Origin: Brevundimonas sp. MYb52 | GTDB taxonomy: Bacteria > Pseudomonadota > Alphaproteobacteria > Caulobacterales > Caulobacteraceae | Direction: 5' to 3' | DNA: 64,000 bases | Assembly (NCBI RefSeq): GCF_002979535.1 | Contig: NZ_PCPB01000004.1 | Span: 124,001-188,000 of the forward strand | Part shown: positions 46,750-51,265 of the stretch, in pieces | Position numbering within the stretch: the stretch's first letter is position 1 | Layout: the number at the start of each line of letters is the position of its first letter | Made by a program: the position numbers and the translations under genes | The notes under the pieces: model-generated | The model's database searches: none | What the model was told of the DNA's origin: nothing | The model's input: the letters and a program-made list of their open reading frames with translations, nothing else

Positions 46750-46825
<76 letters not shown>

Positions 46826-46827
46826 TC

Positions 46828-46858
46828 GAAGGCCCTGCGGATCACCCGCGGGGCCTTC
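46828..46858 (+). terminator. Terminator after tRNA-Ala copy 1
   Basis: A 13-bp stem (46828-46840 with 46846-46858, one G-T pair) begins 3 bases after the tRNA. It is related to the hairpin after the second copy, suggesting both came with the duplication. Confidence 0.7.
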
Positions 46859-46905
46859 GTCCATTCTACCCCGGTTCGCCGGTTCATACCCAAGCCGCAA
46901 GGCGC

Positions 46906-46981
<76 letters not shown>

Positions 46982-46983
46982 TC

Positions 46984-47014
46984 AAAGGCCTCGCGGAACC
47001 CCCGCGGGGCCTTT
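46984..47014 (+). terminator. Terminator after tRNA-Ala copy 2
   Basis: A 13-bp stem (46984-46996 with 47002-47014, one G-T pair) follows the tRNA by 2 bases and ends in TTT. Confidence 0.75.
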
Positions 47015-47031
47015 GTCCTGTCTGGCCCGCT

Positions 47032-47241
47032 TCAATCCTCATCCATGGCCTCGAACATGGCCTCCGCCTCATCGAAGGTGTCGTAGCGCAGTTGCTCCGG
47101 CGAACGGACGATGACGAATGTGGTCAGGGATCGCCCCTCCAACGATCGCGTCTGCTGCCAGAAACTGCGATCGATCCGCTGCTGCAACAACGTCCACTCG
47201 CCCTCGCCCTCAGGGCGTCCGGCTTGAGATCGCGGGTCCAT
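47032..47241 (-). CDS. Small acidic protein of unknown function
   Basis: The 69-residue form starts at ATG 47241, which has GGAGG five bases upstream. It is hydrophilic, with WTLLQQRIDRSFWQQTRSLE and an acidic end (DTFDEAEAMFEAMDED). I do not recognise a family. The frame is open to 47385, but the added residues do not look protein-like. It is divergent from the oxygenase gene and faces the second tRNA terminator. Confidence 0.5.
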   Translation of the reverse strand: MDPRSQAGRPEGEGEWTLLQQRIDRSFWQQTRSLEGRSLTTFVIVRSPEQLRYDTFDEAEAMFEAMDED

Positions 47242-47394
47242 GTCGCCCTCCATCCTGACTGAACCCCCACCCCACAGCAGCCACGCTTGAGAGTCAAAAG
47301 GCAATAGCTCAGCCGAAAGGGCGCCGGACTGCCAATTTGTTCCGGCAAGGCGTATGGAAGCCGCCATATTTTCATTCAGAGGCATGAACCGCCC

Positions 47395-48390
47395 GTGAGC
47401 TCATCGCTGCCCCCTTCTGCCTTGGCCGCGTCCTCCGCCGAGGACCAGACCAGGACCCGCGCCATCGTCCCCGTGTCGATGCAGGCCTATGACGCCGACT
47501 TCCAGGCCTTCGCCGACGCCCTGGGCGCCTCCTTCTCGCGCTACGGCTTCGCCGTCATCGCCGACCACGGCCTGGACCAGCCGACCATCGACGCCGCCAT
47601 CGCCGACGCCAAGGCCTTCTTCGCCCTGCCCGAGGATGTGAAGCGCCAGTATCACCAGCCCGGCACCGGCGGCGCGCGCGGCCTGACCCCCTTCGGCGTC
47701 GAAGCCGCCAAGGGCGCCGCCGCCGTGGACCTGAAGGAGTTCTGGCACGTCGGTCGCGAACTGCCCGCAGACCATCCCTATCGCAAATACATGCGCGACA
47801 ACGTCTGGCCGACCGAGATCGAGGGCTTCCAGGCCCACCTCTACGGCATGTTCGACGCTCTGGATCAGCTGGGCCGCAAGATCCTCAAGGCCATCGCCCG
47901 CTACATGAAGCTGGGCGACGACTATTTCGAGGACAAGGTCGAGCTGGGCAACAGCGTCCTGCGCATGCTGCACTATCCGCCGGTTCCGGCCGACGCCCCC
48001 GGCGTGCGCGCCGGCGCCCATGAGGACATCAACGTCATCACCCTGCTGCTGGGCGCCGAAGAGGCCGGTCTGCAGCTCAAGGACGCAGACGGCGAGTGGC
48101 TGGACATCGCCCCGCCCCCCGGCGCCCTGGTGGTCAACATCGGCGACATGCTGCAACGCCTGACCAACCACGTCCTGCCGTCGACGACGCACCGCGTGGT
48201 CAATCCGGCCCCCGAGCGTCGCGGCTTCGCCCGCTATTCGACGCCCTTCTTCCTGCATTTCAACCCGGACTTCCCGATCGAGACCTTGCCGTCCACGATC
48301 ACCCCGGAAAACCCCGACCGCTATGAAGGCAAGACCATCCTGGCCGAGGACTTCCTGATGGAGCGCCTCAAGGAGATCCGCCTGATCTGA
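47395..48390 (+). CDS. Isopenicillin-N-synthase-like 2-oxoglutarate/Fe(II) oxygenase
   Basis: The 331-residue protein has the double-stranded beta-helix oxygenase fold: N-terminal DIOX_N domain (FGFAVIADH-like FSRYGFAVIADHGLD), iron ligands His209 and Asp211 (GAHEDINVITLLLG) and His266 (TTHRVVNP), and the 2-oxoglutarate-binding Arg280 with Ser (RYST). Substrate unknown; the family includes gibberellin and ethylene-type oxidases in bacteria. The start is GTG at 47395. A shared terminator separates it from the TadG-like gene. Confidence 0.92.
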   Translation: MSSSLPPSALAASSAEDQTRTRAIVPVSMQAYDADFQAFADALGASFSRYGFAVIADHGLDQPTIDAAIADAKAFFALPEDVKRQYHQPGTGGARGLTPFGVEAAKGAAAVDLKEFWHVGRELPADHPYRKYMRDNVWPTEIEGFQAHLYGMFDALDQLGRKILKAIARYMKLGDDYFEDKVELGNSVLRMLHYPPVPADAPGVRAGAHEDINVITLLLGAEEAGLQLKDADGEWLDIAPPPGALVVNIGDMLQRLTNHVLPSTTHRVVNPAPERRGFARYSTPFFLHFNPDFPIETLPSTITPENPDRYEGKTILAEDFLMERLKEIRLI

Positions 48391-48448: not shown

Positions 48449-48472
48449 TGTTGGCTCCAACCGCCGTCCGCG

Positions 48473-50458
48473 TCAGCGGGCGATGCGCAGCCGGGTGATG
48501 TCGCGGCCGATAGCCTTGAAGGCCTCCTTCAGATCCGTGCCGCTGGTGGCCTTGAAGAAGTGCTTGTCTGGACTTGTGGCGCACTGCTCCAAAAGCTCAT
48601 AAGCGGTATCAACACCCGTCTTGCCGACGTCGCTGCTGATCTGGAAACCGACCGTATAGACAACGACGTTTTCTTTTTTCATTGCATCGCAGATCTGCAT
48701 GGACTGAGAGAAGGGGTTCCCGTTACCCGCGTTCGTGTTGATGTGGGCGTCTTCGCTGCCGCTACCGGTGCCGGCGTCCGCTGCGATCACGCCGGCCTGG
48801 AACGGCGTGTTGAACTCCCCGTCGGTCATGAGGATCACAACCTTCAGCGTCCTGCTGGGATCATACTCGGCCGGTCGGCTCGTTCCGGGCCAGAGCGTGC
48901 CGAAATTCGGAGAGATCATATACCACCCCCAGGCCAAACCAATTTGGCCTGCGGTCGAGCCGCCAGCACGCAGCTTGTCGATTTGGTTGCCGAGATCCGC
49001 CCGGCTGCGAGAAAGCGGCGTAATCTCCACCGTGGGACAGGCATTGCTGCTCTCAAGATAGCTGCGACCGACATAGGTGCCTGTTGCCGGCGCGGCGTCA
49101 GTGTATCGGCTCAACCCCGCCCGTTCGCTGACACAGGTGCTGGAGCCCAGAACCGCCACCATATTGCTCGCGGTCGGGAAGGCCCGCCACGTGTTGCCGT
49201 CCTTGCCGTTGAACAGCTTTCCACCGCTGGAATAGGCATTGCCGCCCTTGGAGGCGCTAACCAGAGCAAGGCTCCTGGAGGTATCCAGTATTACTTGGCT
49301 CGACGTCTGGCTGGCCACGCGATAACCCCCATCGGTCAGTTGCGCCAAGCCCCCCATGCTCGCCAGCCGAACATAGTCGTTGGCGACAAGACCATGACCC
49401 GACACCGTCAAGGCAAGACCGCAGTCGGTCCGGACGCATCTGGCGACGTAGGCCGTATTGGAAAACGAGTTGTTATATCCAGACGTATTGAGATAGCCCG
49501 AAGCCGCACCTGAACTGTTGAGCACCTTCAACCTGAACTGGCTGCTGGAGACTCGTTCGACTTCGTACGGCACCCCATTGATTTCGCGCATGGTTTCAAC
49601 GCTCCACAGCACCACGCGATCTCCATTCGAAAACCCGTGGCTCGAAGCGGTGACGGTGGCGGCGCTGCTCCTTGACACCCCGCTCACGGTGGCGATCGTG
49701 CCCGTGATCCAGCTCGCAGCCGTAATCGATTTCGACGTACTGTCCAAAGCCCCGCGCGCCGACGTCGCATAGCTTCCCACGTTCACGCTCGCTGCGTATG
49801 GCACTAGGGCGACGCTGGAGGTGAAGGGCGACTGTTGATCCTGAACGACGAGATCGACCAGTTCCTTGGCGGCGGCCCTCAGATCTTCAATTTTCGTGGT
49901 GGGGGGACAGTTCCTGGAGCAGTTGTCCATTGACCCCGTGATGTCCAGAGCCATGGCCACCTCGACGTCGCGAGACGCCCGCAGAACTTCCGAGCGGCTG
50001 CCCACCGGCAGGTAGTCATCAAGGATCTGGCCGTAGGGCGGCAGGACGATATTGGCGACCAGGACCTTCACGTCCACGCGCGCGTTGGCGACGATGGTGT
50101 TCTCCACCAGCTTGAAACTGGCCTCGTCACGGATCAGCTTGCCGTCCCCATCCTCTTGAAAATAGGCCGGCATGTTGGCCTTGAGCGCGGCTAGGCCGAC
50201 CCGGTTCAGATCATCATCCGCCGTAAAATTGGTGCGCGCCGCCGCCAGGGCCGCCGCGTCCAGCGCGTCCTGCAGGTCGGCCTTCACCTTGGACGCCTGG
50301 TGGATGTCGATGGCGCCGAGCGACACCATGAGCAGCACCGGCAGGGCCAGGGCGAACAGCATGGCCACATTGCCGCGCGTGCCCCTGGCGAAGCGCGCCG
50401 CAAAGCCCCGCGTCGCGCGCGCCAGCCGGCTCAATCCGCTCGTCGCACCATGCTTCAC
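48473..50458 (-). CDS. TadG-like pilus-assembly/vWA protein with two FCCH-like inserts
   Basis: The 661-residue protein starts with a basic segment and one membrane helix (about 30-52; GNVAMLFALALPVLLMVSLG), the TadE/TadG hallmark. A von Willebrand factor A domain begins near residue 165 with MIDAS motif DITGS (172-176) and resumes near residue 480, ending with LMTDGE (543-548). Between them are two repeats (about 252-332 and 341-418) with the pattern ATVTASSHGFSNGDRVVLW, then REINGVPYEVERVSSSQFRL, like the FCCH domains in phage structural proteins. The insert has lower GC. It is probably exported and anchored in the envelope, but no tad operon is adjacent. The start is ATG 50458. Confidence 0.88.
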   Translation of the reverse strand: MKHGATSGLSRLARATRGFAARFARGTRGNVAMLFALALPVLLMVSLGAIDIHQASKVKADLQDALDAAALAAARTNFTADDDLNRVGLAALKANMPAYFQEDGDGKLIRDEASFKLVENTIVANARVDVKVLVANIVLPPYGQILDDYLPVGSRSEVLRASRDVEVAMALDITGSMDNCSRNCPPTTKIEDLRAAAKELVDLVVQDQQSPFTSSVALVPYAASVNVGSYATSARGALDSTSKSITAASWITGTIATVSGVSRSSAATVTASSHGFSNGDRVVLWSVETMREINGVPYEVERVSSSQFRLKVLNSSGAASGYLNTSGYNNSFSNTAYVARCVRTDCGLALTVSGHGLVANDYVRLASMGGLAQLTDGGYRVASQTSSQVILDTSRSLALVSASKGGNAYSSGGKLFNGKDGNTWRAFPTASNMVAVLGSSTCVSERAGLSRYTDAAPATGTYVGRSYLESSNACPTVEITPLSRSRADLGNQIDKLRAGGSTAGQIGLAWGWYMISPNFGTLWPGTSRPAEYDPSRTLKVVILMTDGEFNTPFQAGVIAADAGTGSGSEDAHINTNAGNGNPFSQSMQICDAMKKENVVVYTVGFQISSDVGKTGVDTAYELLEQCATSPDKHFFKATSGTDLKEAFKAIGRDITRLRIAR

Positions 50459-50560: not shown

Positions 50561-51265
50561 TTAGCGGTCGACGCAGGCGTCCAGCCCCGCCTGGCGCACC
50601 GTGCCCATGGCGGCCTGGATGCGGCTGGCGCGGCGACGGACATAGGGGCCCGGCGAGGCGGCCTTGTAACGGCGCGGGCTGGGCAGGATGGCGGCCAGAC
50701 GGGCGGCCTCGCGCGCCGTCAGGTTCTCGGCGCTCTTGTTGAACCAGTGCCGCGAGGCGGCCTCGGCGCCATAGACGCCCGGCGCCCATTCGGCGACGTT
50801 CAGATACATCTCCATGATCCGCCGCTTGCCCCAGGCCAGTTCGATCAGGCCGGTGTAGCCGGTCTCAAGCCCCTTTCTCACCCAGTCGCGGCCCGGCCAG
50901 AGGAAGACGTTCTTGGCGGTCTGCTGGCTGATGGTCGAGCCGCCCCGCACCTTGCCCGAACCGCGCTGCTCGGCCCGCTCATTAGCCTCCAGCGCCTTCT
51001 GGATGGCCTCGACGTCAAAGCCGTGATGCTGGCAGAAGCGGGCGTCCTCGGCGGCGATCACCGCCTCGACCAGACGCGGCGAGATATGATCCAGCGAGCG
51101 CCAGCGGTAGTCCATGCCGTGACCCGCGATCGCCTGCTTGACCATCAGGATGGTGAACAGCGGCGGCACGAAGCGGTGCAGCACCACCCCGCCGATCGGG
51201 ATCAGGGCCAGGATCAGCAGCAGGGTCAGCAGCGGGCGCCGCTTGCGGGTCTTCGCACGGGTCAT
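50561..51265 (-). CDS. mtgA: Monofunctional biosynthetic peptidoglycan transglycosylase
   Basis: The 234-residue GT51 enzyme polymerises lipid II into glycan strands at the inner membrane. It has an N-terminal helix (about 14-32), the catalytic EDARFCQHHGFD (Glu near 73), GGSTISQQTAKNVFLWPGR, KRRIMEMYLNVAEWAPGVYGAEAA and the C-terminal ARLAAILPSPRRY. There is no transpeptidase domain. It is followed by a 102-base gap to the TadG-like gene. It is monocistronic or loosely linked to the WD40 gene upstream. Confidence 0.96.
   Translation of the reverse strand: MTRAKTRKRRPLLTLLLILALIPIGGVVLHRFVPPLFTILMVKQAIAGHGMDYRWRSLDHISPRLVEAVIAAEDARFCQHHGFDVEAIQKALEANERAEQRGSGKVRGGSTISQQTAKNVFLWPGRDWVRKGLETGYTGLIELAWGKRRIMEMYLNVAEWAPGVYGAEAASRHWFNKSAENLTAREAARLAAILPSPRRYKAASPGPYVRRRASRIQAAMGTVRQAGLDACVDR

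Follow-up and report, generated by a model that had tools for sequence, protein, structure and literature searches.

The window, a stretch of 64,000 nucleotides from Brevundimonas sp. MYb52, carries on its minus strand a 661-residue open reading frame that the first-pass annotation had described as a TadG-like protein, and this description is borne out (Table 1). Pfam places a Tad domain (PF13400) at residues 29-75 (37.9 bits, cut-off 22.3) and, above their curated cut-offs, E1_FCCH (PF16190) at residues 269-312 and VWA (PF00092) at residues 536-648. Residues 28-40 read RGNVAMLFALALP, in which Phe falls one residue later than in the G/A-X4-F/E prepilin peptidase site motif that precedes the hydrophobic stretch (PMC12607857). 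The residue numbers given previously for the MIDAS (172-176) and TDGE (545-548) motifs on either side of the insert are correct; in an alignment of 51 homologues, D172, T174, S176 and D546 are invariant and T502 is conserved in at least 90%. The region first singled out, 49214-49696, corresponds to residues 255-415, and the two tandem repeats inside the vWA domain extend over residues ~252-337 and 340-428. Together these data confirm that the gene product is a TadG-like protein whose vWA domain, with its MIDAS intact, is split by two FCCH-type repeats.

Table 1. Features of the tip-gene locus in window coordinates.
Feature	Position	Strand	Remarks
2-oxoglutarate/Fe(II) oxygenase-like gene (presumed)	47395..48390	+	flanks tip locus; conserved neighbour, Brevundimonas and Caulobacter
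cpaL-like (TadG family) gene	48473..50458	-	661 aa, GTG start
Second vWA segment, residues 436-661	48476..49153	-	PF00092 at 536-648, model, fold match
FCCH repeat 2 (diverged), residues ~340-428	49175..49441	-	unit/repeat HMM matches, model strands
Cys341/Cys346 pair between repeats, candidate disulfide	49421..49438	-	kept in 61/61 two-repeat proteins
FCCH repeat 1, residues ~252-337	49448..49705	-	PF16190, PHROG 584, UBA6 FCCH fold match
First vWA segment, residues 161-236	49751..49978	-	alignment, model, vWA fold match
MIDAS D172-x-T-x-S176	49931..49945	-	T502 at 48953-48955, D546 at 48821-48823
Tad/TadE-like hydrophobic N-terminus and pilin-like module, residues 29-160	49979..50374	-	PF13400 and model
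mtgA-like transglycosylase gene (presumed)	50561..51265	-	flanks tip locus; conserved neighbour in relatives

The gene, hereafter the tip gene, lies between what we take, from sequence and family knowledge, to be an mtgA-like transglycosylase gene and a 2-oxoglutarate/Fe(II) (2OG) oxygenase-like gene. In Brevundimonas the gene order is a WD40 gene, mtgA, at least one tip gene and the 2OG oxygenase, and the oxygenase side is also found in Caulobacter. The gene is flanked by chromosomal genes that are conserved across the genus, and no phage or prophage structural operon was found around it. Several Brevundimonas genomes, though not the window, carry between mtgA and the tip gene a lipoprotein gene that is presumably peptidase-like, its family being guessed from sequence (L065:3934-5883, L055:4038-5912). 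Two tandem tRNA-Ala (GGC) genes lie on the + strand at 46750-46825 and 46906-46981, and the ORF called across this pair (46765-47262) is spurious.

The insert had been proposed to be of FCCH type, with PF16190 or phage structural proteins as the expected profile matches, and both were obtained. Repeat 1 scores 32.0 bits against Pfam E1_FCCH within the whole protein and 36.6 bits when the insert is searched alone (cut-off 29.5), and PHROG 584, 'major tail protein', matches the insert at 1e-9. PF16190 also matches 26 of 27 related inserts at E <= 0.01. Repeats 1 and 2 are related, as their profiles cross-match. When a unit HMM derived exclusively from two-repeat proteins is run, each of 61 homologues proves to hold exactly two units, which puts the tandem repeat far beyond chance. 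Searching PDB sequences with phmmer returned weak vWA matches only (3tvy at E 0.09).

Structure prediction, which the first-pass annotation had recommended, gives an FCCH barrel fold. Modelled alone with AlphaFold (pLDDT 88.8, 27 sequences), the insert aligns with the first catalytic cysteine half-domains of UBA6, at a Z-score of 13.6 (1.3 Å over 79 residues, mainly covering repeat 1), and of UBA1, at a Z-score of 13.1 and 29% identity; FCCH matches to UBA6 and UBA1 span Z 11-13.6. Further matches are to the tail tube of phage T1 (Z 10.3) and to tail structures related to it. Foldseek agrees, and a viral structure library yields tail, baseplate and 'FCCH domain' phage proteins. The strands of repeat 2 are present in the AlphaFold models. 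The window repeats thus share their barrel fold with ubiquitin-activating enzymes (14-29% identity) but occur as a tandem pair inside a vWA domain, with no E1 enzyme context. They likewise share an FCCH-like barrel with T1-type tail tubes and podophage tail tubular protein B, which are 40-48% identical to the repeats of one orthologue; those phage proteins are virion structural components, and the protein that carries the module there is a different one.

The full-length model (mean pLDDT 88, pTM 0.78, 45 sequences) has a helix at residues 27-74 followed by strands at 112-159. Its vWA part best matches Mfa5 (Z 21.8), with SpaC (19.0), RrgA (18.9), PilB (18.8) and GBS104 (18.6) also found; integrin I domains match with like scores, as expected for a vWA fold. 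These pilus proteins, the PilB being that of S. sanguinis, share the vWA fold, and most of them come from other pilus types. In the model the vWA domain is unbroken by the insert, its halves being predicted to fold together and matching the vWA domains of pilus-tip adhesins.

This architecture has essentially been published already as CpaL of Caulobacter crescentus (CCNA_0199, WP_010918088.1), making the window protein a Brevundimonas member of the CpaL kind. In its published description (mBio 2025), CpaL consists of a minor pilin joined to a vWA domain that is divided by two tandem six-stranded barrels, and has SpaC, RrgA, Mfa5 and PilB as its top analogues (PMC12607857). Deletion of cpaL lowers piliation and raises holdfast production, and the protein, whose location at the tip is predicted, is a proposed Tad pilus tip mechanosensor, held to be a negative regulator of surface sensing rather than a simple adhesin (PMC12607857). 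Like CpaL, the window protein has a pilin-like module, a two-segment vWA domain with MIDAS, two tandem barrels between the segments, an orphan locus and about the same length. It differs in lacking the Cys pair after barrel 2, and in that the CpaL authors, whose Dali search gave their barrels no strong match, termed these 'beta-rich' (PMC12607857), whereas those of the window protein are identified as FCCH. What this work adds is the recognition of CpaL-type barrels as FCCH modules with kin among phage tail proteins, and the finding that their number differs between tip genes. The FCCH name gives barrels that had no assigned relative, in a proposed mechanosensor of bacterial surface contact, a structural template, and it ties pilus tips to phage tail parts.

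Orthology to CpaL was judged from a related Caulobacter sequence and the published residue numbers. The MIDAS of this orthologue (L030, on the same contig as L076, 'C. vibrioides T5M6') is D159/T470/D515, against D160/T470/D515 in published CpaL. Caulobacter barrels are more diverged, with a weak FCCH match of 22.7 bits that lies below the Pfam cut-off. In three Caulobacter orthologues (L024:658-3351, L032:1498-3891, L078:4872-7262) the open frame runs ~170-270 residues further upstream. TadG of Aggregatibacter and other Tad systems shares the TadG-type N-terminus and is a Tad pilus tip protein whose C-terminal part is modular (PMC12075869, PMC12607857); Tad pilus tips are known to have a modular build (PMC12075869). 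FCCH repeats are missing from most of the collected TadG-like proteins outside the CpaL clade.

The pilus-associated context claimed in the first-pass annotation is supported by the Tad/TadE N-terminus, the CpaL-like layout and the genus-wide presence of the Flp pilin, found in 61/61 sampled Brevundimonas genomes, 60 of which have a TadG-like relative. One complete genome (G083) has the Flp pilin and no match to the window tip protein. The main tad genes (Flp, TadE) are on contig C7 and the tip gene on C30 of the same genome, and a gene outside the tad cluster might encode a general vWA surface protein that is no pilus component. We consider this improbable: the Tad/TadE N-terminus scores above its Pfam cut-off and is followed by a pilin module, and the orphan placement is the same as that of cpaL, which lies apart from the main tad cluster (PMC12607857) and has a pilus phenotype.

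We then turn to the history of the repeats. Among the 61 genomes, 45 match the window protein end to end across the insert, ~11 match in the flanks only, one carries a single-repeat form, and in the other four the match is fragmentary or absent. Among 131 collected homologues (window included), 61 have two FCCH units, 12 have one and 58 have none. On a core tree of these 131 proteins, from which the insert was left out, a minimum of 11 changes in repeat number is required, against a shuffled mean of 51.5, and the two-repeat form occurs in most of the genus Brevundimonas and in Caulobacter, Hyphomonadaceae and Devosia. Given this wide spread and the few changes, the two-barrel architecture is old. 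In a tree of individual units, most first and second repeats fall into separate old lineages, and phage units are not firmly placed.

The first-pass annotation had instead read the insert as a capture from a phage or mobile element, marked by a lower-GC patch. The patch itself stands: the 60-mer at 49441-49500 has 29 G+C, a value as low as that occurring in only 0.7% of 60-mers in the window, and the insert has 59% GC against 63% for the remainder of the gene (third-position GC 72 against 79). It is not special to the insert, as the 3' end of the gene (48460-48819) also has 57-58% GC. Insert GC is below that of the rest of the gene in 51/57 two-repeat orthologues. Third-position GC, taken as insert minus rest, differs by a mean of +0.001 (+0.1 point) and is lower in the insert in only 29/57, while GC at codon positions 1+2 is on average 4 points lower in the insert and is lower in 53/57. 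The low GC of the insert is thus due to the residues of the fold, rather than to foreign origin, and this codon-position analysis rules it out as evidence of transfer.

Insertion of phage FCCH repeats in this lineage, leaving a low-GC footprint, would also draw on the 40-48% identity between an orthologue's FCCH units and phage tail tubular or nozzle-type proteins. It is contradicted by the insert being shared and syntenic, across Caulobacterales and beyond and at a conserved locus, by the separate old lineages of the two repeats, and by tblastn, in which no phage record matched the window insert. The patchy presence and atypical third-position composition of a recently transferred segment were not found. 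The first-pass annotation had itself named an insert present with normal GC in all orthologues across Caulobacterales as evidence against capture, and this is largely what the orthologue comparison and codon-position GC gave. The window repeats group with those of the nearest relative, which also argues against a recent re-acquisition. We regard recent capture as highly improbable.

Kinship of the FCCH insert with phage tail proteins is nevertheless real, and supports no direction of exchange. The more canonical insert of the B. fluminis orthologue (L055) has matches in 43 phages, with identities reaching 48%; examples are the tail tubular protein B of Pelagibacter phage and 'FCCH domain' proteins of Vibrio phage. 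The lack of a match for the window copy thus reflects divergence rather than absence of kin. In several phages examined, capsid, head-completion or tail tubular A genes are found close to the matching gene. With PHROG 584 and the T1 tail tube fold, these matches substantiate the phage-tail likeness first noted for the repeats. A literature search combining FCCH with phage tails turned up nothing beyond work on ubiquitin-system enzymes or on unrelated subjects. The fold common to T1-type tail tube proteins, the sequence similarity to tail tubular proteins and a unit tree that does not firmly part phage units from CpaL units make it possible, if doubtful, that phage tail proteins and Tad pilus tips exchanged the module, in either direction, long before these genera split. 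The 84 columns of that tree resolve little, however, and the FCCH unit is widespread, including in eukaryotic E1 enzymes, so that a common older source is equally possible.

These data allow us to propose a mechanism for the protein, which is probably a CpaL-type minor pilin with a vWA head and an FCCH barrel side arm at the tip of the Tad pilus. We picture the N-terminal helix together with the pilin module as located at the pilus tip, beside small TadE/F-like pilins, and the vWA domain with its intact MIDAS as a surface-contacting, force-bearing head. The two barrels, placed between a vWA core strand and the MIDAS threonine motif, would form the side arm. This arm most likely acts as a rigid outrigger that evolves faster and either touches the surface or determines the load path to the vWA domain, its length tuned by 2, 1 or 0 barrels. 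By analogy with CpaL, we infer that the window protein acts at the tip in surface sensing or binding, and we likewise infer the role of the barrel arm in contact or load.

Each barrel has a mean pairwise identity of 0.36, while the two vWA segments reach 0.60 and 0.50. When nine close pairs were compared, most showed a higher dN/dS in the barrels than in the second vWA segment; the ratio is below 1 throughout, and this simple pairwise method supports no positive selection on the barrels. Faster barrel evolution would also be explicable by neutral drift of a spacer. Such a passive spacer, neither binding nor sensing, would agree with these ratios and with the variation in repeat number; genomes with 1- or 0-repeat forms lack one or both barrels, showing that the family can dispense with the arm. 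We judge a passive spacer rather unlikely, since the barrels sit inside the vWA domain, and not between it and the pilin module where they would extend a stalk, and the invariant Cys341/346 pair speaks for the structure being maintained. Of the 61 two-repeat proteins, 59 retain the Cys pair after barrel 2; the window protein and its nearest relative (L004) have neither Cys, and such an all-or-none pattern is compatible with a disulfide.

Barrel number varies between 2, 1 and 0 among tip genes, and in Brevundimonas it does so at one syntenic locus: the window has the two-repeat form, L037, L082 and L083 a one-repeat form and L044, L100, L102, L112 and L124 a 0-repeat form. These natural variants are ready-made material for testing the role of the barrels. 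Some genomes (L036, L053, L034, L035) have tandem tip gene copies at the locus. On a speculative reading, to which we give little weight, Tad tips and phage tails would have an interchangeable FCCH module in common, and the mtgA-oxygenase locus would be a site of tip-gene duplication and barrel gain or loss that tunes what the pilus touches, be it a surface or a pilus-tropic phage.

Tip proteins without FCCH in L044, L100, L112 and L124 are 570-584 aa long and have another stretch between the vWA halves. Tandem duplicate TadG/CpaL genes are seen at the tip locus in L045:147-3774, L036:5302-7182 together with L009, L034:4420-9901 and L033, and in some Caulobacter genomes tandem tip genes with differing repeat numbers lie side by side.
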